Assembly: GCA_027026255.1 (NCBI GenBank)
Contig: JALVOT010000017.1
Coordinates: 143,562-177,669, forward strand
From: Caldifarciminota bacterium
GTDB taxonomy: Bacteria > Hydrothermota > Tepidihabitantia > SM23-42
Length of the DNA: 34,108 bases
Reading direction: 5' to 3'
The notes under the pieces were generated by a model. The model made no database searches and was not told the origin of the DNA. It saw only the letters and a program-made list of their open reading frames with translations. Below, one piece after another: positions 8,355 to 20,413 of the stretch. The stretch's first letter is position 1. Every line of letters starts with the position of its first letter. The position numbers and the translations under genes were made by a program.

Positions 8355-10013
8355 ATGTATCTTCTATCCCTTATCCTATTTTTAATGCCCCCCAACCCAT
8401 TTGTAAGAAGTCCAATTACACCACCCCGATTCCCCGCCTTGATGAATCAGGGAATTAAACGCATCCCTGAGGCAATCGGCACAAAAAAGGCCCTGGTAAT
8501 ATTAATCGACTTCCCTGACAATCCTCACCAATATCCAAAGATTTCATTTGACTCTCTTATCTATTATGAAAACTGTAACTCATTAAGAGATTATTATACT
8601 GAGGTATCTTACGGTAAATTTACAATCAGTCAGCAGAGTTATATCAGTGATTGGGTGCGGGCACCGCACAACTACTCTTATTATATCGGAGATTCCTTCG
8701 GCCTTTACCCGGGAAACTTCCCCCGGAATGTTCAGGGAATAGTCTGGGCCGCCTGTAGCCTTGCCGACCCGGTGATAGACTTCTCCCAATTTGATGAAGA
8801 TAATAATGATACAGTGGATGCAATCTTTATTGTCCATGCCGGGCCAGGTGCTGAAGAGACCAGAAATATCAATTATGTATGGTCCCATCAATGGCAGCTC
8901 TCAAACACAGGTTCAGGTTGTCCCGGGGCATATCCAACTGATGATGGTGTATACATTGACCACTATTCAATGGAACCGGAGAAATTTGAAAGCCATACAG
9001 GAAGAATTACAGTCGGTGTCTTCGCCCATGAATTTGGCCATATCCTTGGGCTGCCAGACCTCTATGACAGAGATTATTCAACCTACGGGCTTGGAATATT
9101 TGCAATTATGGCTGCCGGCTCCTGGGGAAGAAAAAGTGAGCAGGACCTGCCTGGTTCCTCACCGGTCCATTTCTGTGCCTGGTCAAAGTATCAGCTGGGC
9201 TGGGTTCAACCGGTACCGGTTGAGCGCATCGGCAATTCAAAACTTATTGATCAAAAACTTCCTCCATCTGCTGATACCGGAAAGATTTACAGATTGTTGA
9301 GTGACCCTGACGGTCCGGACTGGGAGTGGTCCGGAGGAAGCGGTGAATATTTTCTGGTTGAGAACAGACATCAGTCCGGATTTGATAAAAGTCTGCCTGG
9401 TAATGGTCTATTAATCCTCCATATTGATGATTCCCGGAGCGATAATGATGACCAGAACCATCCCTTAGTTGGAATAATACAGGCTGATGGAGAAACAGGA
9501 TTCCTCTTAAACAATCTGGGTGAGGCGAAAGACCTCTGGAAAAATTCCACCTACGGGTTCGGCGATACCTCAAAACCGGCCAGTCTTGATTACAACGGTA
9601 ATCCTACCGGAGTCTGGGTATATAATATCGGTCCGGCTGATTCAATAATGACCGCATCTTTCTGGGTTACTCCAATCCTTCTGGGCAGGGTCTATTCATT
9701 CCCCAATCCCTATCGTGCTGACCATCCTCCTCCCTGGGGCGATAAAGTAGTCATAACCTATGTCCCGACCGATACGACCGAACTCACTTCTAAGTTCCCC
9801 AGGTTTAAGGTTACTATCTACAATATTGCGGGTGAACGTGTCAGAATACTTGACACCGGGCCTAAAGAAATCGACCGCTTTTCCCGACGCGCCTTCTGGG
9901 ATTTAAAAAATGAAAACGGCCAGGATGTTGTAAGTGGAATGTATCTTTATGTAATTGAAACCCTCGATAATAAACACGAAAGAAATAAAGGTCGGCTGAC
10001 CATTATTCGGTGA
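8355..10013 (+). CDS. Secreted M6-family zinc metalloprotease with FlgD-like C-terminal domain
   Basis: A 552-residue protease. A short hydrophobic N-terminus (MYLLSLILFLM) is a likely signal peptide. The propeptide/catalytic region has ALVILIDFPDN and SLRDYYTEVSYGKF, typical of the immune-inhibitor-A (M6) family. The zinc site is HEFGHILGLPD: H225, E226, H229 and D235 in the HExxHxxGxxD pattern. The last 105 residues (from about 444, YSFPNPYRA to GMYLYVIETLD) form a FlgD-like Ig domain, used in FCB-type bacteria as an export or surface-attachment tail. It probably degrades extracellular protein. The gene overlaps the next one by the four bases GTGA, so it is translationally coupled to a histidine kinase. 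It lacks a ribosome binding site and appears leaderless. Confidence 0.93.
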   Translation: MYLLSLILFLMPPNPFVRSPITPPRFPALMNQGIKRIPEAIGTKKALVILIDFPDNPHQYPKISFDSLIYYENCNSLRDYYTEVSYGKFTISQQSYISDWVRAPHNYSYYIGDSFGLYPGNFPRNVQGIVWAACSLADPVIDFSQFDEDNNDTVDAIFIVHAGPGAEETRNINYVWSHQWQLSNTGSGCPGAYPTDDGVYIDHYSMEPEKFESHTGRITVGVFAHEFGHILGLPDLYDRDYSTYGLGIFAIMAAGSWGRKSEQDLPGSSPVHFCAWSKYQLGWVQPVPVERIGNSKLIDQKLPPSADTGKIYRLLSDPDGPDWEWSGGSGEYFLVENRHQSGFDKSLPGNGLLILHIDDSRSDNDDQNHPLVGIIQADGETGFLLNNLGEAKDLWKNSTYGFGDTSKPASLDYNGNPTGVWVYNIGPADSIMTASFWVTPILLGRVYSFPNPYRADHPPPWGDKVVITYVPTDTTELTSKFPRFKVTIYNIAGERVRILDTGPKEIDRFSRRAFWDLKNENGQDVVSGMYLYVIETLDNKHERNKGRLTIIR

Positions 10014-11296
10014 AATCTTCTTATCCCAAAAATGTCAGCATTATTGCAGTTGTATTTATTATCTGCATACTATTTGTTGCCGGAATAAATTTATATATCA
10101 GCATTCAGTTTCGCAATCAATTAATTAAGTATGACCACAACAGGATTATCGCAATGGGCACAATCTGCCGGGGGTTTTTGAATCATTATCAAGACCCCCG
10201 AACAAAAAACTCCCTGTTTCGTATTTTGATGAAATCATTTCAGCTTAATACCCTGATTATCAGTGACACCCTCGATAACATCATCTATGATTCTCGTAAT
10301 CCATTTAATCCAAGCAGCATACCACAACGCATAAGCCTCCAGGGGAAATTCCCGAATCTGCCCAAACCAGGTCAGGTTATCCGAAAAGGAAAAGCCTATC
10401 TCTATCTTAATGATGAACCACGATTTTATCTCTACACAACCTTATCCGTTCTTTACATTCCGACCTTTGATAAAATCTTCCAGTGGCACATATTTTATAT
10501 AACAATTTCCCTGATATTTGTAGGATTTTTAGGAATATTTTTAATCCGCAACCTGTTTCTGCCGATGCGATATGTAAGCAAACTTGCTGAAGAACTGGGT
10601 GTTGAAATGAAATCTGAGGATTTTGTATCAAAAACATTCAAAGAAATTTATGATAAACTGCGCTTAAGGGAAGAGGCCATTAAAGAATTTTCCGGATATA
10701 TCGCCCACGAATTCAGAAACTCAATCGGTGCAATTGTGGGTATTGCCCGGCTTATTGAAAAAGGGAAAAAATCATCTGCAGAAATCATTCAGGAATGTCA
10801 AACTATGGAAGAATTAATCAATCATCTCTTAGAATTCGCCCGCCCCTTAAAACCTCAAAAAACCCGGATTGAAATCGACCAGCTGATTGATGATGTTGTT
10901 AAACAGATTCCGCTCGGCAAGGATATAGAGGTTTATAAAATACCGGAGCGGTCCGGTATATCAATAATGGCGGATTATGAACTTTTAAGCAATGCGATAA
11001 AAAACCTATTAAGAAATGCGGTTGAGGCAATAGATAAAAAAGGGGTAATCAAAATAGAAAAAGGCCGGTCCCAGGATTTTATAACGATTTCAATAATTGA
11101 TAACGGCTGCGGAATTGATCCCCAGGATGCTATAAAAATATTCACCCCATTCTATTCAAAAAAAGAGCAGGGTATAGGTCTGGGCCTCGCCTATGTCAAA
11201 AAAATTATGGAGGCACATAATGGCAGAGTTGAGCTGGAATCAAAAAAGGGTCAGGGGTCAAAATTTACATTATTTATCCCAATCTTGACCCCTTGA
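10010..11296 (+). CDS. Membrane sensor histidine kinase, orphan
   Basis: A 428-residue kinase. A first membrane helix (about 9-33) and a second (about 160-180) enclose an extracytoplasmic sensor of about 125 residues. After the second helix comes a HAMP-like linker, then the dimerisation/phosphoacceptor domain with GYIAHEFRNSIG; H233 is the predicted phosphorylation site. The ATPase domain shows the N-box NAIKNLLRNAVEAI, G1 box DNGCGID, F box FTPFYSK and G2 box GIGLGLAYV. No PAS domain and no response regulator are found next to it. It starts with GTG inside the stop of the M6 protease gene, which suggests equal expression of the two. The link between the extracellular protease and the sensor is inference from coupling. 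Confidence 0.92.
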   Translation: MKSSYPKNVSIIAVVFIICILFVAGINLYISIQFRNQLIKYDHNRIIAMGTICRGFLNHYQDPRTKNSLFRILMKSFQLNTLIISDTLDNIIYDSRNPFNPSSIPQRISLQGKFPNLPKPGQVIRKGKAYLYLNDEPRFYLYTTLSVLYIPTFDKIFQWHIFYITISLIFVGFLGIFLIRNLFLPMRYVSKLAEELGVEMKSEDFVSKTFKEIYDKLRLREEAIKEFSGYIAHEFRNSIGAIVGIARLIEKGKKSSAEIIQECQTMEELINHLLEFARPLKPQKTRIEIDQLIDDVVKQIPLGKDIEVYKIPERSGISIMADYELLSNAIKNLLRNAVEAIDKKGVIKIEKGRSQDFITISIIDNGCGIDPQDAIKIFTPFYSKKEQGIGLGLAYVKKIMEAHNGRVELESKKGQGSKFTLFIPILTP

Positions 11297-11320
11297 TTTT
11301 AGCCGCGATTTGATTATATT
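11293..11320 (+). promoter_or_regulatory. Likely promoter of the tldD-pyr operon
   Basis: TTGATT (11293-11298), 16 bp, TATATT (11315-11320), overlapping the last codons of the histidine kinase gene. The transcript would start near 11327 and contain AAGGAG (11336-11341) before the tldD ATG. Confidence 0.6.
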
Positions 11321-11350
11321 TATCAGGATGCCAAAAAGGAGCAGTTAATT

Positions 11351-12778
11351 ATGAAAAAATTTATAAAGAATTTAATCGATACCCTATCCTTAAAAAAGGT
11401 CGATTATGGAGATATCAGAGTTGTGGAAACAGAAATTGAAACAATCACATTAAAAAATGGGGTCGTTGAGGCGATTTTGCACGATACCGACCTCGGTTTT
11501 GGGATAAGGGTTTTAAAAAATTCTGCCTGGGGGTTTTCATCCGCAAATCAACTTACCAGAAAAGCCGGAAACAAAGTAATCAAAGAAGCCCTTGATATCG
11601 CCCGGGCATCAGCCCGAATCAAAGGTTCCGGAGTCAATCTCACCCCGCTTAAACCCCAGAAAGGCACCTATCGCACCCAGTTTAAGATTGACCCGATGAA
11701 GATTTCACTTGATCAGAAATTAGAACTCCTCCTTACCTGTAATAGTATTATGCGCCGGGAGAAACTTATAAAGGTAAGCCAGGGTTTTCTCCGCTTTAAA
11801 AGGATAAAGGTGTATTTTGCCTCAACCGAGGGTTCTCTTGTCAGCCAGGATTTTGTCTATAGTGGCGGGGGTATAAAGGTCTATGCAGTGGACAAAGAAG
11901 AGATGCAGTCGCGTTCCTATGGTGATTTCAGTCAGCAGGGATATGAATTCATTAAAGAACTCAACTTTATCAAAAATGCGCCCCGAATCGCCGAAGAGGT
12001 TGTAATGCTGCTCAAGGCAGAGCCCTGCCCGGAAAAGAAGGCTACTGTGGTGCTCGATTCTGACCAGATGGTCCTGCAGGTCCATGAATCGTGCGGACAT
12101 CCTGCTGAGCTGGACCGGGTTCTGGGGACTGAGGCATCATATGCCGGCACCAGTTTTCTTACCCCTGATAAACTCAATAAATTCAAGTATGGTTCAGAGA
12201 TAGTTAATATTGTAGCGGATGCAACCGTGCCTAAGGCATTGGGAACATTCGGCTGGGATGACGAAGGTGTTCCAGCCCGGAAGGTCTATCTTGTGAAGAA
12301 CGGCCTGTTTGTCGGCTACCTGACTTCCCGTGAGACTGCAGGGATATTGAATCAAACCTCGAGTGGTGCGATGAGGGCCGACGGCTGGAACCGCATTCCG
12401 CTTATCAGGATGACAAATATCAATCTTCTTCCCGGAACCTGGAAATTTGAAGAGATAATTCAGGATACAAAAGACGGTATATTTATGCAGACCAATAAAT
12501 CCTGGTCTATTGATGATAAAAGGCTGAATTTCCAGTTCGGTTGTGAATTTGCCCGCGCCATAAAGAACGGTCGATTGACAAAGGTCTATAAAAATGCTAC
12601 ATATGCCGGCATAACACCCCGATTCTGGAAAAGTTGTGATGCAATTGCCAACCGCCGTTCCTGGAAGGTCCACGGCGTTCCAAACTGCGGCAAGGGGGAA
12701 CCGGGCCAGAGTATGTTTGTTGGTCATGGAACTGCACCGGCACGCTTTCGAAATATTCAAATTGGAATTGCACGATAA
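11351..12778 (+). CDS. tldD: TldD/PmbA-family metalloprotease, TldD type
   Basis: A 475-residue cytoplasmic protein, normal length for TldD. The zinc motif HESCGH (H245, E246, H250; HExxxH) followed by PAELDRVLGTEASYAGTSF is diagnostic of TldD rather than its partner TldE/PmbA, which lacks it. The C-terminus GHGTAPARFRNIQIGIAR also fits the family. TldD with TldE degrades unfolded peptides and matures some modified peptides such as microcin B17. No TldE gene lies next to it, which is unusual because the two are often adjacent; the partner may be elsewhere. It is the first gene of a run of seven genes leading into pyrimidine synthesis, with 18 bp to the next gene. Confidence 0.92.
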   Translation: MKKFIKNLIDTLSLKKVDYGDIRVVETEIETITLKNGVVEAILHDTDLGFGIRVLKNSAWGFSSANQLTRKAGNKVIKEALDIARASARIKGSGVNLTPLKPQKGTYRTQFKIDPMKISLDQKLELLLTCNSIMRREKLIKVSQGFLRFKRIKVYFASTEGSLVSQDFVYSGGGIKVYAVDKEEMQSRSYGDFSQQGYEFIKELNFIKNAPRIAEEVVMLLKAEPCPEKKATVVLDSDQMVLQVHESCGHPAELDRVLGTEASYAGTSFLTPDKLNKFKYGSEIVNIVADATVPKALGTFGWDDEGVPARKVYLVKNGLFVGYLTSRETAGILNQTSSGAMRADGWNRIPLIRMTNINLLPGTWKFEEIIQDTKDGIFMQTNKSWSIDDKRLNFQFGCEFARAIKNGRLTKVYKNATYAGITPRFWKSCDAIANRRSWKVHGVPNCGKGEPGQSMFVGHGTAPARFRNIQIGIAR

Positions 12779-12796: not shown

Positions 12797-14104
12797 TTGC
12801 ATAAAGGTCTGAATAATAACCTTATAGATTCCATACGGTTGCTCTCAATCATTATCTTATCGACTATCTCGTGCGCTTATTTTAATACATTCTACAATGC
12901 ACAGAGTTATTATCATAAGACACGACAACTGGTTACGAATGATACCCTGAAGGTCGATTCTGACTACTTTGATAAGACAATAGAAAAGGCTACATCGCTC
13001 ATAGTAAAATATCCAAATTCGCGCTGGGTAGATGATGCCCTCTTTATGATGGGTGTTTCATACTATTTTAAGGGTGATTATCCAAGGGCATTAGAGAAAT
13101 TTGACTATCTCTTGCTAAATTACCCGGAAACCGGCTTTTACGACGACGCCCTCTATTACAAAGGTCTTACCTATTTCAAACAGAACAACCTATCCAAGGC
13201 AGTAATCGCCCTCAAGGAGGCGGCAGAATCAAAGGCATACAAGAAAAATGCCGGCATTATTCTTTTATATATCTACAAAAGAGAGAAAAATTACGAAGCC
13301 ATAAATGAACAGGCACGGCAGTTGCTTGAACTTGGATTGTCAAAAAAAGAGAAAAATGATGTCCTCGAAATCCTGGGTGAAGCCCAATTCAATCAGAAAG
13401 AATATACTAAGGCATTAGACACCTACAATAAAATGCTTGAAATTACCAAGGCAAAGACAAAAAAGGATTCTCTGAAATTGAAGATCGCCCGTATCTATCT
13501 GCAGGTAGGAAAATATGACATCTGTAAGAAACTCCTTGAACCAGAACATAGCCCGCCATTCCGTCTCCTCCTTGGTGATTTGAATCTTAAATTGAATAAT
13601 AAAGAAAAGGCAGAGGAAATCTATCATAAGGTGACAAAAGAGGGCGGCGGTAATTTCTCTGCACAGGCATACTATAAACTGGCAAGGCTTTATGAAGAAA
13701 CCGATAGTATCGATAAGGCAATCGCCTATTATGACTCTTCACTTAATAAATCCGTAACCGATGAATATGCCCTGGAGGCGAAGAAAAAAGCCGATATCTT
13801 AAGAAAAATAAAAGAACTGCAGGGGAAAACTGAAGACCCGGCTGGAGCAAAATTTCATCTTGCTGAAATCTATTTTACAGAATTGAATGATATAAACCGG
13901 GCACTCAAATTCTATCGCACCGTAACCGAGGATTACCCCGGGTCTAAATGGGCATCAAAGGCACTTTATGCCCGTTTCTGGATAACCAAAAATATTGTAA
14001 AGAATGACTCTGCAGCCGGGATCCTTGCCGATGAACTATTTAAAAAATATCCCGATACCGAGTATGCAATAAGTGCCAGAAAAATACTGGGCATCGAGCA
14101 ATGA
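12797..14104 (+). CDS. TPR-repeat lipoprotein (BamD/YbgF-like style)
   Basis: A 435-residue protein with a hydrophobic N-terminus ending in the lipobox STISC; the mature protein begins CAYFNTFYNAQSYYHKTRQ. Nearly all the rest is tetratricopeptide repeats, for example YPNSRWVDDALFMMGVSYYFKGDYPRALEKF and DPAGAKFHLAEIYFTELNDINRALKFYRTV (quoted in parts in the sequence at about 13010-13110 and 13830-13930). Such proteins act as scaffolds at the inner leaflet of the outer membrane, as BamD does, but this one is longer than BamD and its partner is unknown. The start is uncertain: TTG at 12797 is the longest choice and has only a weak AAGGGA before it. Its last bases overlap pyrK by ATGA, so it is in the pyr operon. 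Confidence 0.82.
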   Translation: MHKGLNNNLIDSIRLLSIIILSTISCAYFNTFYNAQSYYHKTRQLVTNDTLKVDSDYFDKTIEKATSLIVKYPNSRWVDDALFMMGVSYYFKGDYPRALEKFDYLLLNYPETGFYDDALYYKGLTYFKQNNLSKAVIALKEAAESKAYKKNAGIILLYIYKREKNYEAINEQARQLLELGLSKKEKNDVLEILGEAQFNQKEYTKALDTYNKMLEITKAKTKKDSLKLKIARIYLQVGKYDICKKLLEPEHSPPFRLLLGDLNLKLNNKEKAEEIYHKVTKEGGGNFSAQAYYKLARLYEETDSIDKAIAYYDSSLNKSVTDEYALEAKKKADILRKIKELQGKTEDPAGAKFHLAEIYFTELNDINRALKFYRTVTEDYPGSKWASKALYARFWITKNIVKNDSAAGILADELFKKYPDTEYAISARKILGIEQ

Positions 14105-14850
14105 ATTTTCAGACACGGATTAAAAGAAAAATCTTATTTAATAGAGATATATTCGGCTTAGAGGTATTCCTTCCCCGTATCAGACCTGTTCCTGGCCAGT
14201 TCTTCCAGCTCCAAGCAAACCCGGGAATCGACCCCTTTTTGCAGCGGCCAATCAGTATCGCTTCTCACAAAAACCGGCATGCCCTCTTTATAATCAAGAT
14301 TGTCGGTAAGGGAACTAAGATACTGTCTGAAAAAAGACCGGGTGATCCTATCTTTTTAAGGGGACCGATGGGTAAGGGAATCAGACCAAAAAAGGGTAAA
14401 ACCCTGCTCATTGCCGGAGGGATTGGAATCGCCCCGCTCTACTTTCTTGCCCAGCACTGCCGGAAAAGAAAAATCCCATTTTCCATAATCTACGGAGCGA
14501 AAACCGAAAAAGACCTGATTCTGAAAACAGCACTAAAAAAATTGACCTCCTCCTGTTTCTTTGTTGTTGAAAAAGGGAAAGGGGAAAAAGGAACCGTCAT
14601 ATCATTTCTAAAAAACTTTCCAGTTAAGAATTATAAATTCATCTATGTATGCGGCCCAAGACCGATGCTCATTCAATTACAGAAACTCAAAATTACCAGG
14701 CCGGTCTATGCATTCTGTGAAGACTTTCTGGGATGCGGCTGCGGCATCTGCCTGGGATGTGCAATAATGGTCAAAAATACCTATAAAAGGGTCTGCACTG
14801 ATGGTCCGGTATTTAAATTAAAAGAAATCAATTTTTTAAACTATGATTGA
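14101..14850 (+). CDS. pyrK: Dihydroorotate dehydrogenase B, electron transfer subunit
   Basis: A 249-residue iron-sulfur flavoprotein that passes electrons from PyrD to NAD+ in the class 1B enzyme. The N-terminal part is the FAD-binding barrel (PGQFFQL, LQRPISIAS); the middle is the NAD-binding domain (LLIAGGIGIAPLYFLA). The C-terminal [2Fe-2S] site is CGCGICLGC, which fits C-x4-C-x2-C with one extra cysteine, and a fourth ligand in RVCTDGPVF. The gene overlaps the TPR gene by ATGA and pyrD by 8 bp, so translation is coupled. Its presence shows that the organism uses the NAD-linked dihydroorotate dehydrogenase and not a quinone-linked one here. Confidence 0.94.
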   Translation: MNFQTRIKRKILFNRDIFGLEVFLPRIRPVPGQFFQLQANPGIDPFLQRPISIASHKNRHALFIIKIVGKGTKILSEKRPGDPIFLRGPMGKGIRPKKGKTLLIAGGIGIAPLYFLAQHCRKRKIPFSIIYGAKTEKDLILKTALKKLTSSCFFVVEKGKGEKGTVISFLKNFPVKNYKFIYVCGPRPMLIQLQKLKITRPVYAFCEDFLGCGCGICLGCAIMVKNTYKRVCTDGPVFKLKEINFLNYD

Positions 14851-15694
14851 ACTATTCGGAATGAAATTTAAAAATCCTGTATTCATTGCATCCGGGGTTT
14901 TTGAATTTGGTCTTAAATACAAAAGGGTGAGCAACCGGGTTGGTGCCCTGTTTACCAAGGGCATCACCTTAAAACCCAGAACAGGTAACCCCCCACCCCG
15001 GATATATGAAACACCCTGCGGTTTGATTAATACCGTGGGTCTTGAAAATCCCGGGGTTAAAGAATTTGTCAAAAAGATTCTCCCCCGGATAAAAAAACTC
15101 AAAACCCGTATCTTTGTTAATGTTGCAGGATTTACAAAACAGGAATTTGTCCAGATTGTCCAGGAAATCGGTAACCGGGTTGACGGCTTTGAACTGAATG
15201 TCTCCTGCCCCAATGTAAAAGAAGGTGGTGTCCAGTTCGGACAGGACCCCCAGATCTGCGGCCGGATTGTTACTGCAGTGCGTAAGAAAACAAAACTTCC
15301 TGTAATCGTCAAACTTACTGCCAATTTTTGTGATCCCCTGATAACAGCAAAAGCCTGTGTGGATGCGGGCGCCGATGCCATAGCATTGATAAATACGCTC
15401 CATGCAATAAAGTTTGATACAACGAAAAAGAAACCCTTAATAATCGGAGGACTTTCTGGCCCGGCAATAAGACCATTTGCCCTCTATTGTGTCTATCGAT
15501 TAAAAGCATTGAAGGTGCCGGTCATCGGCGGCGGCGGCATTGTCAGTGCCCGGGATGCCTATGAATTTATCCTTGCCGGGGCATCGGCAATCACCCTGGG
15601 CTCAATCTGTTTCAGGGACCCCTATGCACCTTTAAAGATTATCAAGGAACTAAAAAAATTTATGTCTGAACAAAAACCAAGGAGGTTAAATTAA
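14843..15694 (+). CDS. pyrD: Dihydroorotate dehydrogenase B, catalytic subunit
   Basis: A 283-residue FMN enzyme (TIM barrel) that oxidises dihydroorotate to orotate. Class 1 signature: FELNVSCPNVKEGGVQFG, in which C122 is the catalytic base. FMN phosphate binding is seen in PVIGGGGIVSARDAYEFILAGASAITLGS (split over 15520-15605). It is slightly shorter than the common 300 residues, with no missing core motif. The start overlaps pyrK by 8 bp and the stop overlaps the pyrF start (TAATG). Confidence 0.95.
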   Translation: MIELFGMKFKNPVFIASGVFEFGLKYKRVSNRVGALFTKGITLKPRTGNPPPRIYETPCGLINTVGLENPGVKEFVKKILPRIKKLKTRIFVNVAGFTKQEFVQIVQEIGNRVDGFELNVSCPNVKEGGVQFGQDPQICGRIVTAVRKKTKLPVIVKLTANFCDPLITAKACVDAGADAIALINTLHAIKFDTTKKKPLIIGGLSGPAIRPFALYCVYRLKALKVPVIGGGGIVSARDAYEFILAGASAITLGSICFRDPYAPLKIIKELKKFMSEQKPRRLN

Positions 15695-16407
15695 TGAAAG
15701 AACATCTCATTGTCTCGCTTGACCTGAACAACCTTGAAGATATCAAAGACCTGGTCAAAAATTTAGGTGACCTGGTTGCATTTTACAAAATCGGCTCAAT
15801 TCCATTTATCTATTTTGGCAGGGAAATCATTACATTTCTCAAAGAGAACAATAAAAGAGTGATGCTCGACTTGAAATTTCACGATATTCCCAATACAGTT
15901 GCTCGAACCTGTGAAGGGGCATTAAAACTGGGCGTCGATTTTATCACCCTGCATACAAGCGGCGGTTTTTCAATGCTTGAAGAGGCGGTAAAGGCAACCC
16001 TATTATATGAAGATAAAAAAATCCCACGCCCCAAACTGCTCGGCGTGACTGTTCTGACAAGCATTGATGAGGCACATTTCAGAGACCTGTTCGGTGATAT
16101 TAAAAGGTCACTCTCTGAACAGGTTCTATTTCTTGCCGGTCTTGCCCGCAGTGCTGGACTTGATGGTGTTGTAGCATCACCCAAAGAGATCAAAATGATA
16201 AGAGAAGAATGCGGTAAGGATTTTCTTATCGTCACACCAGGAATCAGGTTAAAACCGGGTCAGGATGACCAGGCGAGAACTATGACGCCGGGACAGGCAA
16301 TAAGTGCCGGGGCTGACTATATTGTTGTGGGTAGGCCGATAGTAAAGGCACCTGACCCGGTATCTGCAGCCGAAGAAATCATTAAGGAGATGGAAAGTGG
16401 AAATTGA
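15694..16407 (+). CDS. pyrF: Orotidine 5'-phosphate decarboxylase
   Basis: A 237-residue cytoplasmic TIM-barrel enzyme that converts OMP to UMP. The catalytic motif is LDLKFHDIPNT with D59, K61 and D64 in the D-x-K-x-x-D pattern. The phosphate-binding end is seen in VTPGIRLKPGQDDQARTMTP and GADYIVVGRPI. The ATG overlaps the pyrD stop by one base (TAATG) and AAGGAGG lies just upstream. The end overlaps pyrE by 11 bp. Length and motifs are those of the bacterial PyrF group. Confidence 0.96.
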   Translation: MKEHLIVSLDLNNLEDIKDLVKNLGDLVAFYKIGSIPFIYFGREIITFLKENNKRVMLDLKFHDIPNTVARTCEGALKLGVDFITLHTSGGFSMLEEAVKATLLYEDKKIPRPKLLGVTVLTSIDEAHFRDLFGDIKRSLSEQVLFLAGLARSAGLDGVVASPKEIKMIREECGKDFLIVTPGIRLKPGQDDQARTMTPGQAISAGADYIVVGRPIVKAPDPVSAAEEIIKEMESGN

Positions 16408-16945
16408 AAAATTATTAAAAGAACTGAGGGTCCTTCAACAAGGGCATTTTCTCTTAAACTCCGGACTCCATTCTGAATTCTATTTTGAAAAATTTCGGAT
16501 TCTTGAAAACCCCTTAGCAACAACAAAACTCTGTGCACTCATTGTTGAGCATTTTAAAGAACTTAATATTGACTGGGTAATCGGTCCAACCACCGGAGGA
16601 GTGATCATCGCCTTTGAGACCGCCCGGCAGTTAAACAGTTATGCAGGTTTTGCTGAAGAACGCGAGGGTAAAAGAATTATCGGCCGGGGATTTGATATAA
16701 AAAATAAACGCATACTCGTTGTTGATGATGTCCTGACCACCGGGAAATCATTAAAACAGACCCTGAAGGCGATTGAAGCAAGTCAGGGTGATGTTGTCGG
16801 TATCGGGGTATTGGTCGACCGCAGCAATCAAACAATGCCCTTCGAATACTATGCAACCTATCAAAAGGAGGTGGTGAATTACTCACCTGATAACTGCCCA
16901 CTCTGCAAAAAAGGGATACCCCTTATCAGACCCGGAGGGATTTAA
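16397..16945 (+). CDS. pyrE: Orotate phosphoribosyltransferase
   Basis: A 182-residue enzyme that joins orotate and PRPP to OMP. The PRPP-binding loop is ILVVDDVLTTGKS (about 106-118), and GPTTGGVIIAFETAR supplies the preceding loop. The C-terminus carries CPLCKKGIPLIRPGG, a Cys-x2-Cys tail seen in a subgroup of PyrE proteins. It starts with GTG at 16397 within pyrF, with AAGGAG upstream. Its stop TAA is followed in the same frame, with no spacing, by the AUA codon that appears to start the MFS gene; the codons for the final PGG residues contain the GGAGG used by that gene. Confidence 0.95.
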   Translation: MEIEKLLKELRVLQQGHFLLNSGLHSEFYFEKFRILENPLATTKLCALIVEHFKELNIDWVIGPTTGGVIIAFETARQLNSYAGFAEEREGKRIIGRGFDIKNKRILVVDDVLTTGKSLKQTLKAIEASQGDVVGIGVLVDRSNQTMPFEYYATYQKEVVNYSPDNCPLCKKGIPLIRPGGI

Positions 16946-18013
16946 ATACCAGCCCTTCTAAACTTCTTTTATCTTTCATCCTGGACATTAACCCTGATAT
17001 TCATCCCCTTAACTGCCCGGCAGTACACAGATAATCTTTTCATAATCTCTCTTGTCTCTGCAGTCTATAATGGAATGGTTCTTTTTTCCTCAATCATTTT
17101 CGGCCGGCTTGGTGATACGCTCGGCCGAAAAAAGATTGTCCTTTTGGGTTTTCTAATCTGCGGCCTCATATTTGCCGGACACAATTTTATTCGTGATATC
17201 TTCAGCCTTTTTATATGCCGGGGGCTTGCCGGTATCGGAGTTGGAATGATTCCCGGTTCACTCGCGGCTTTAGCCTGGGGAGGTTCCTTAGGCTTCTTTA
17301 CAGGCCTGGGTTCCCTGGGTTTTACCGGGGCAAGTCTGGTCGCCGGAATATTAAAAAAGAATATCTATATCTTTTCCGGCTCGGCACTACTTGCCTTTAC
17401 CGGATTCATTATCGCCCTGTTTATAAAAGAAAAACCGATTCAACTCAATGTGCCTCTTTTCCCTATTAAAATTATCTTCAAAAACATCCGCGTATATCTC
17501 CCCTATCTAATCCGGCACAGTGCCGCAACTGCAATCTGGGCGATATTCCCCATCTATCTGACGACACTTGGTGCCGATAAATTCTGGATTGGAATAATTT
17601 ATGCAATAAATCCCTTAATGCAGTTTATCTTTATGCTCCTGCTTGACCGCTATAAAAGCACATCCCTTATATCGGTCGGACTTATCGCCTCTTTTATTAC
17701 ATTCTCGGGATATGCATTATCAAAAAACTGGCAGGTGGTCATCGCACTCCAGGTCCTGCTCGGCTTTTCCTGGGCAAACCTCTATCTCGGTTCAATCAAA
17801 TTTTTGCTTGAAAACAATGCCGAGAAGGCAACCGCTACCGGTATTCTCAATTCAATATTTGGACTCTCGGGAATTATCGGACCGATTATCGGCGGCCTGG
17901 TCCTCTTCTTTGGACTCCGCACCCTCTTATACTTTTCAGCAATCCTTGCCCTGAGTGCAATTATAGTTTTAAGAATCCTAAGGCGGTCAGCACAAACAGT
18001 ATCACCGCAATAA
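16946..18013 (+). CDS. MFS transporter, probable AUA start codon
   Basis: A 355-residue major facilitator with 12 predicted membrane helices. The family motif A is GRLGDTLGRKK in the loop after helix 2. No ATG, GTG or TTG exists in this frame between the pyrE stop and the ATG at 17075; a start at 17075 would remove helix 1 and half of helix 2 and has no ribosome binding site. The frame is open back to 16946, where ATA lies 7 nt after GGAGG (16934-16938). I therefore place the start there. It may move a pyrimidine or related compound, judged only from its place at the end of the pyr operon. Its 3' end overlaps the convergent COG2426 gene by 53 bp. Confidence 0.82.
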   Translation: MPALLNFFYLSSWTLTLIFIPLTARQYTDNLFIISLVSAVYNGMVLFSSIIFGRLGDTLGRKKIVLLGFLICGLIFAGHNFIRDIFSLFICRGLAGIGVGMIPGSLAALAWGGSLGFFTGLGSLGFTGASLVAGILKKNIYIFSGSALLAFTGFIIALFIKEKPIQLNVPLFPIKIIFKNIRVYLPYLIRHSAATAIWAIFPIYLTTLGADKFWIGIIYAINPLMQFIFMLLLDRYKSTSLISVGLIASFITFSGYALSKNWQVVIALQVLLGFSWANLYLGSIKFLLENNAEKATATGILNSIFGLSGIIGPIIGGLVLFFGLRTLLYFSAILALSAIIVLRILRRSAQTVSPQ

Positions 18014-18497
18014 CTGCACCGTACCAGCCCAGCATACATAAAGAAAGCACAATTATTCCAGCGATAAGCACGCCCAGGGAAATAATCAAAAGTGATTTTT
18101 TAAATTCAAGGTCAAAGAGAAACGCAATTAAGGCGCCGGTCCAGGCACCGGTTCCGGGCAGGGGCACGGCGACAAAAGCCAGAAGACCGATTTCCTTGTA
18201 TTTTTTGATCACATAATCACCCCTTTTTCTTGTCCGGTTAAACAGCCAGTCAAAGAATTTACTTAAGATTTTTATCTTTGATAAAAATCTCACCGCCGGC
18301 TTCAAAAGTAAAATTATAAAAGGCACCGGAATGATATTTCCCAAAAATGAAATTAGAAATGCCTTGAACCAGGCAATATGGAAAAGATTTATTGCCAAAG
18401 GTAAAGAACCGCGCAGTTCAATAATCGGCAGCATTGATGTAATAAATACGGCAAGTTCCGGGCTCAATCCCCGGGCAACCAGGTCCTGAGGATTCAT
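17961..18497 (-). CDS. COG2426 small membrane protein (putative small multidrug export family)
   Basis: A 178-residue integral membrane protein with about four to five helices. The segment PIIELRGSLPLAINLFHIAWFKAFLISFLGNIIPVPFI (18420-18310) and the later VAVPLPGTGAWTGALIAFLF are characteristic of the Sm_multidrug_ex family; the conserved ELRG and PGTGAWTG motifs are present. Despite the family name no substrate is established. The start ATG overlaps the stop of the upstream VWA gene (ATGA). The 3' end lies 53 bp inside the oppositely transcribed MFS gene. Confidence 0.85.
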   Translation of the reverse strand: MNPQDLVARGLSPELAVFITSMLPIIELRGSLPLAINLFHIAWFKAFLISFLGNIIPVPFIILLLKPAVRFLSKIKILSKFFDWLFNRTRKRGDYVIKKYKEIGLLAFVAVPLPGTGAWTGALIAFLFDLEFKKSLLIISLGVLIAGIIVLSLCMLGWYGAVIAVILFVLTALGFLKL

Positions 18498-20413
18498 ATA
18501 CCTCCTCTCCGCCTCCTTAATATCCAGTCAAATGAAAAAAGCAGTATAATCAAAACGGCAAATATCGGGTGATTAAATTTAATGCGGGTATAGGTATCAC
18601 GCCGCTTTATTCTCGGTGCTTTCAAATTTTTAAGGCTGTCAACGGGATAGTATTTTCCCATTGTCTTTTTCGCAATCATCTGTAATAATCGATGATTAAT
18701 CGGTTCTGTGGTTTCGAGCGGATGTGGTCTAATCTCGATATTTAAGGGTCGGCTCTTCAAAATCTCATCACCGAGTCGACCCTGTGCATAGATTTTATAT
18801 TTACCTGGATTCCGGGCAAAAAAGGTAGCTTCATACATACCCTTTTCTACTTCATAGAACGGAATCTTTAAATTACCAAATTTAAGATAGAAATCACCGC
18901 CTGAAGCAGGCTTCAGGGATGAATCAAAACTCTGCAGTTTCACCCTGATCTCCTCACCGGCGCGATAATCTTTTTTTACGGCTTCCAAAAAAAGACGACC
19001 TTTTCCCTTAAGGATATAAGTAAATCTTATAATATCTGACAGTAAAGCAGCAAGTATATCCTTCTGCTGCAGCCCTTTCTGAAGAAATTGCCAGGTGCCC
19101 AAATCAACAATGTTAATTTGAAACACTATCCCCCCATATTTATGATAGGCGATGATTGGAAGATTAGCCGACCGGGCGATAACCACCGCATCATCTTTGC
19201 TACCATAAACACGATTAATCGCCGAAATCGGTGGAACCTCATCCCCCGGCTTGAAAACTGAAAAAGGCTGGAGAATATCAAGCCGATATTCCCCCCTGAT
19301 AACACCACCTGTCATATTTATAGGCAGGATATTCTGCCAGACACTATCCACACCCTCAAGCGAACCGATAATCAGCATCCCCTTTCCCTGCTTTAAAAAT
19401 ACCCGGACATCAGAAATAGAAATGTCATCAAAATTTATGTTATCAAGAATCACGACATCAACCGAATCGAATTCGATATGCGATTTTATCCTCCTGTTCG
19501 TCTTTACATCAAGGTATCTTCCAGAACCAAGTGTAATAATAGAAGAAAGGGCAATGTGCGAGTCCTTGTTTAAGGCATCAAGGATAAATTTTGTATTAAA
19601 AGAGGGATGACTTGTAAAATATTGAACCCGAATCTTCTCACTCAAAACATTGAGGGATGTATAAAAGATATTATTCTCATAGGTCTGTTCCCGGGATTCT
19701 GGTCTAATTTTGATGACCAGATTCTTCTCGCCGGGTTTCTTAAAAACAGTCTTAAATACTACACGTCTCTGTGCACCAACCAGACTCAGCGGAAAGGAAC
19801 TCCTCAACTTACCCGAAGGAAGTTCAATCTCAACAATACCTTTTTTCTTCTTATAGCCGGCAGATTGAACTATAACTTCGATCTTTGTTGTATCATTGAT
19901 ATAAACAAACTTCGGAACCACCACATCCGCCACGGCTATGTCTTTTATTGTCTCAACCCCGACCCCGAATGTATATACTACAGGTCCCGGTTCATCAAGA
20001 ACATCAATTGGTGACCGTCCATAATTATGATTACCATCACTGAACAAAAAAATTACTGCAGGGTTCTTTTCTTTAACCTTTCTTAATGCAGCGGTGATAT
20101 TCGTATAACTGCCGAGACGGGCCGGTTTTCGGCTACACAATGATTCACTGAAAAAATATAATCTATGCGGAAATTCAACATCGTCGATAGTCTTGAGCAA
20201 TTGAGAGAAGACCGGCTTCATACTTAAAGATGCATCCACCAGGAAAACAGGCGAATCATTCTCTGATGGTTTCTTTACAGGAAGAACAAAATTTGTGGTC
20301 AAAAGGACAAGAAATAAAAGCGCAAATATTCTTATGAGTAAATTCAGCAGACTCTTTCGATACAAGAGAACAATAATTACAACCGCAATCAGACTAATGG
20401 AGTAGACTATCAA
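18494..20413 (-). CDS. Membrane protein with VWA and GATase-like domains
   Basis: A 639-residue protein. Two N-terminal membrane helices (about 1-45) are followed by a VWA-type domain with an intact metal site, FLVDASLSM (D-x-S-x-S), and IFLFSDGNHNYGRS. Then come Ig-like segments (about 160-260), a glutamine-amidotransferase-like Rossmann domain without a visible catalytic Cys (VQYFTSHPSFNTKFILDAL to GKGMLIIGS), a further Ig-like part, and a C-terminal helix FAVLIILLFSFDWILRRRRGG. This layout is like BatA/VWA-GATase membrane proteins found in Bacteroidetes-, Planctomycetes- and FCB-type genomes, whose role is unclear. The start is TTG at 20413, overlapping the preceding lipoprotein gene by 20 bp. 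Confidence 0.8.
   Translation of the reverse strand: MIVYSISLIAVVIIVLLYRKSLLNLLIRIFALLFLVLLTTNFVLPVKKPSENDSPVFLVDASLSMKPVFSQLLKTIDDVEFPHRLYFFSESLCSRKPARLGSYTNITAALRKVKEKNPAVIFLFSDGNHNYGRSPIDVLDEPGPVVYTFGVGVETIKDIAVADVVVPKFVYINDTTKIEVIVQSAGYKKKKGIVEIELPSGKLRSSFPLSLVGAQRRVVFKTVFKKPGEKNLVIKIRPESREQTYENNIFYTSLNVLSEKIRVQYFTSHPSFNTKFILDALNKDSHIALSSIITLGSGRYLDVKTNRRIKSHIEFDSVDVVILDNINFDDISISDVRVFLKQGKGMLIIGSLEGVDSVWQNILPINMTGGVIRGEYRLDILQPFSVFKPGDEVPPISAINRVYGSKDDAVVIARSANLPIIAYHKYGGIVFQINIVDLGTWQFLQKGLQQKDILAALLSDIIRFTYILKGKGRLFLEAVKKDYRAGEEIRVKLQSFDSSLKPASGGDFYLKFGNLKIPFYEVEKGMYEATFFARNPGKYKIYAQGRLGDEILKSRPLNIEIRPHPLETTEPINHRLLQMIAKKTMGKYYPVDSLKNLKAPRIKRRDTYTRIKFNHPIFAVLIILLFSFDWILRRRRGGI

Follow-up and report, generated by a model that had tools for sequence, protein, structure and literature searches.

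A likely AUA start codon directly behind the pyrE stop for a transporter gene in the pyrimidine cluster of a bacterium related to candidate division WOR-3

The MFS transporter gene that follows pyrE in the genome analysed here likely begins at an AUA codon abutting the pyrE stop, which would make this AUA a genuine weak start, conserved among relatives, that relies on a Shine-Dalgarno (SD) element inside pyrE, is coupled to the termination of pyrE and is probably sensitive to IF3. We infer the initiation at AUA, the coupling, the low yield and the IF3 sensitivity alike from the comparison of sequences. The window, by which we mean the whole stretch of 34,108 nucleotides that was analysed, comes from an uncultured bacterium with a genome of 2.1 Mb (18 contigs); the nearest relatives that carry a name are genomes of candidate division WOR-3. 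The pyrimidine cluster of the window ends with four successive genes on the + strand: a putative pyrK-like gene named from its sequence (14101-14850), pyrD (14843-15694), pyrF (15694-16407) and pyrE (16397-16945), the last encoding orotate phosphoribosyltransferase from a GTG start at 16397 to a TAA stop at 16943-16945. PyrE matches Pfam PF00156 (E=5e-16), and its best NCBIfam match is TIGR01367 (pyrE_Therm; E=1.7e-41), with a score of 141.9 bits that lies slightly below the cut-off of 150.25. The transporter frame follows at once on the same strand (16946-18013, 355 codons plus stop), open and in register with pyrE, with the candidate start ATA at 16946-16948 and a GGAGG at 16934-16938 that coincides with the Gly-Gly codons near the 3' end of pyrE and is separated from the ATA by the 7 nt GATTTAA. 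The initial annotation had described this arrangement of stop, ATA and GGAGG exactly, as sequence and translation both confirm, and it was also right that no ATG, GTG or TTG occurs in the transporter frame before the ATG at 17075, which is codon 44. A convergent membrane protein gene on the − strand (17961-18497) overlaps the 3'-terminal 53 nt of the transporter.

Both profile and fold place the product in the MFS: it matches PF07690 (MFS_1) with E=6e-23 and 81.7 bits against a cut-off of 33.4, and AlphaFold predicts a full MFS fold for the 355 residues (mean pLDDT 91.3, pTM 0.89). Helix 1 is modelled at residues 2-17 and 20-25, with high confidence from residue 2 onward, and the second transmembrane (TM) helix at residues 31-59, in agreement with the earlier assignment of the first TM helix and half of the second to the stretch ahead of 17075 (codons 2-43, 16949-17074, with no canonical start codon among them). 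The nearest solved structures are those of NorA, MdfA and VMAT2, at 14-18% identity. The gene neighbourhood invites the guess that the transporter exports a nucleobase or orotate.

We sought relatives among the 150 nearest genomes and found highly identical transporters in seven further members of the window's own family (f1), namely six from other genera and one from the same genus, and in three genomes of a sister family (f2). An AUH codon (AUA, AUC or AUU) stands directly behind the pyrE stop in all eight f1 genomes with the gene pair, which represent seven genera, and in none of these eight does ATG, GTG or TTG occupy this place. The junction reads TAA-ATA in six of them, including the same-genus genome (80% identical), TAG-ATC in one and TAA-ATT in one, and the next codon specifies Pro throughout. 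Since the f1 transporters are 61-80% identical as protein and their synonymous sites are near saturation, conservation of a stop-AUH junction in eight of eight genomes exceeds chance. AUA initiation is thus the option of the initial annotation that relatives support, and the comparison of this junction in related genomes, which it had proposed, gave no ATG at the AUA position. That annotation had also considered a sequencing error of ATA for ATG, and although a single nucleotide would be enough to turn one into the other, the same state recurs in eight separate genomes, some of them single-contig assemblies, with AUC and AUU variants among them; we therefore regard a sequencing or assembly error as having a negligible probability. 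In f1 genomes that lack the transporter, ordinary spacer DNA lies 3' of pyrE.

The stretch between the AUA and the first canonical codon behaves as coding sequence. Within the same-genus pair, codons 2-43 show a pN of 0.043 against a pS of 0.452, a signal that vanishes in shifted frames, and such strong purifying selection in one frame only indicates that this frame is the one in which the stretch is translated. Across all 11 transporters of f1 and f2, the first canonical codon falls anywhere from codon 31 to codon 47 with no common position, and the Met encoded at 17075 is replaced by V or I in three relatives (L004, L005 and L009). The ATG at 17075 is the first canonical codon of the frame and hence the one that automated annotation would choose, yet translation from it or its equivalent, with the upstream stretch left untranslated, is very improbable when that stretch is constrained, the Met is not conserved and, given the modelled helix positions, the product would be left without TM1 and half of TM2. 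Relatives that start at the equivalent of 17075, which would have spoken against an AUA start, did not appear: the 42 codons preceding it are conserved as protein. Gene callers that accept only ATG, GTG or TTG miss starts of this kind, so the database entries for the transporter likely lack the first helix in all of these genomes, and such callers would shorten the window's gene to 17075-18013. In more distant homologues (families f6, f9 and f19), an ATG, GTG or TTG start lies within two residues of the AUA position.

No start is possible upstream within pyrE in f1, because the pyrE stop is in frame and adjacent, and the initial annotation had named read-through of the TAA as a further option. 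Low-frequency read-through of this stop would yield a PyrE-transporter fusion in which the next codon is decoded as Ile, and in f1 the two frames are indeed in register with no further stop between them, while the codon behind the stop always specifies Ile and has undergone synonymous changes only. In f2, however, an 8-nt indel at the junction places transporter and pyrE in different frames, which rules out read-through there, and still no canonical start is conserved, so that the continuity of one frame across the stop that programmed read-through would demand of relatives is kept in f1 and lost in f2. The identity of the stop also varies, with TAA or TAG in f1 and TAG, TAA or TGA in f2, the homologues outside this arrangement have their own start close by, and an SD element stands at the right distance from the AUA. 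Together these points make read-through, already less favoured than AUA initiation by the comparison of families, quite improbable.

All three f2 genomes carry a CTG 2 nt behind the pyrE stop and 9 nt from a GGAGG-like element, and on the basis of this position we take CUG to be probably the start of the f2 transporter. Upstream of the CUG, two of the three genomes have no canonical start, and the third (L012) has an ATG, a GTG and a TTG, none shared with the other f2 genomes. Near-cognate initiation would then be one explanation that covers both families, and the features expected of it are found together at this locus: conserved coding sequence with no usable ATG, GTG or TTG ahead of it, a near-cognate codon retained in relatives and suitable SD spacing. 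We set aside A-to-I editing of the AUA, as AUC, AUU and CUG also occur at the site.

The SD-like element, GGAGG or GGGGG, lies 7 nt upstream of the candidate start in f1 and 9 nt upstream in f2. Because the C-terminal Gly-Gly of PyrE, part of a ...GG[x] terminus in f1, is kept in both families even where no transporter lies downstream, the SD appears to have been borrowed from protein sequence. The first of these Gly codons is GGA or GGG in all 11 genomes where the transporter follows pyrE versus five of nine without it (Fisher one-sided p=0.026, uncorrected for phylogeny), and this bias towards purine-ending Gly codons lends modest support to an SD function. The distance from the pyrE stop to the transporter start, 0 nt in f1 and 2 nt in f2, is within that of translationally coupled pairs. 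We saw no conserved RNA structure at the junction, where folding was no better than that of shuffled sequences (z +0.2 to -1.0), and no Rfam match within window positions 14000-19000.

We propose that the SD formed by the Gly-Gly codons of pyrE positions the ribosome at the AUA, and that a ribosome ending pyrE would need to shift just two codons to bring the AUA into the P site. With the AUA only two codons away, termination-coupled reinitiation with fMet-tRNA is probable, and the imperfect match between AUA and the initiator anticodon should make the start inefficient. IF3 probably discriminates against it, which would hold the transporter far below PyrE, and selection has probably kept the start weak, allowing drift among AUA, AUC and AUU (and CUG in f2) but never to AUG. 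It could instead be that SD-anchored, coupled reinitiation makes the identity of the start codon nearly irrelevant, so that AUH is tolerated rather than selected to be weak; the absence of any gap between stop and start in f1, the 2-nt gap in f2 and the variation of the codon among AUA, AUC, AUU and CUG would all fit. We consider this unlikely, as AU is fixed in f1 despite near-saturated synonymous sites, and a third-base G is never seen even though AUG is one transition from AUA. Start-codon changes reconstructed in 36 genome triplets also run strongly to AUG, and switches to AUU or CUG have frequencies of about 1e-5 to 4e-4 per start (PMC5622118); given this published preference the persistence of AUH, and of CUG in f2, over the f1-f2 divergence is unlikely to reflect drift. 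By analogy, a selected weak start suggests that transporter output is deliberately kept low. More tentatively, we raise the possibility that across this WOR-3 order ribosomes leaving pyrE restart on AUH or CUG by means of SD anchoring and the abutting stop, and that the start has been held weak over more evolution than separates the members of one order, so that the ratio of transporter to PyrE may be set by the level of IF3 or by the condition of the translation machinery.

Only a handful of bacterial genes are known to have a conserved non-canonical start. Translation of E. coli pcnB is reportedly limited by an AUU start (Binns and Masters 2002), and the transporter would resemble it in having a limiting start of the AUU type; pcnB is an unrelated gene, and its start is not known to abut an upstream stop. 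A closer likeness is infC, which encodes IF3, the discriminating factor, and is autoregulated: in these same genomes infC too has a near-cognate AUH start behind an SD, and that start has been retained across deep divergence. Unlike infC, a discriminator that regulates itself, the gene here encodes a transporter and abuts the stop of pyrE. In Staphylococcus aureus, infC and ccpN start at AUA and cvfC1 at AUU, with about 10-30% of the yield of AUG (PMC13009471). The transporter shares a conserved AUA or AUU start with an SD with ccpN of S. aureus and B. subtilis (AUA) and with staphylococcal cvfC1 (AUU) (PMC13009471), but those firmicute genes encode regulators or small proteins and have an extended SD and no described abutment to an upstream stop. 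Streptomyces sigR has a GTC start that is repressed by IF3, and the same paper gives ATT or ATC as starts of infC (PMC5472188). As in sigR, a rare non-canonical start is kept in relatives behind a strong SD and would hold one operon product below its neighbour (PMC5472188); the differences are that sigR uses GTC and is the first gene of its pair, and that the effect of IF3 is experimental there and only inferred for the transporter. To the genes that have conserved non-canonical starts the present case would add one for a membrane transporter, set in a pyrimidine operon and unusual in that its start abuts an upstream stop. It also offers a natural series of AUA, AUC, AUU and CUG at one site, and with it a testable claim that weak starts set stoichiometry within an operon.

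Like other bacteria, this lineage also uses AUH starts elsewhere, since infC in f1 and f2 (loci L104-L127) starts with ATT, or ATC in two cases, behind GGAGGTG-like SDs; the GTG inside these SDs is likely mistaken for the start by gene callers. A survey covered 219 ortholog pairs, with 400 kb (about one fifth) of the window's genome on one side and 2.0 Mb of a second genome (G007) on the other; the procedure is blind to any gene in which a canonical codon happens to lie upstream and would miss infC itself. In five of the 219 pairs, both genomes had 15 or more aligned codons ahead of the first canonical start: two lay behind a conserved in-frame TGA, two were overlapped by another gene and one was the transporter. 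With overlaps and in-frame TGA excluded, the transporter was the sole case among the 219 pairs, and a genome-wide habit of non-canonical starts was not seen. Two tRNA genes with anticodon CAT were found among the scanned part of the 46 tRNA genes.

A gene for a DUF2723-like membrane protein, named from its sequence (contig C14:36248-38003, locus L208, outside the window), has no ATG, GTG or TTG in its first 141 codons and a candidate ATT at codon 10, which points either to a weak start peculiar to the species or to an error at this spot; we rejected it as a second conserved case because its relatives have canonical starts. The in-frame TGA conserved in both genomes occurs in two genes that also lie outside the window, on contig C17 at 10704-12618 and 9887-10694 (locus L084, with G007 homologues). 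Its context in the first is TEHTC-TGA-GAREEAKVF in one genome and TDHTC-TGA-GAIERAK in the other, and in the second LAELFTEDG-TGA-PYCWLAEQAL and FTEDF-TGA-PFCSLAEQAL, a thioredoxin-like U-P-x-C arrangement, and these TGA are probable selenocysteine codons. Elsewhere on C17, again outside the window, two selD-like frames (C17:85956-86931 and 80170-81163) have an in-frame TGA just ahead of the conserved motif ASK/AGK, the arrangement of SelD proteins that contain Sec. A probable prfB gene, for RF2 (C17:127568-128612, likewise outside), shows the programmed +1 frameshift site usual for this gene, CTT TGA C preceded by AGGAG.
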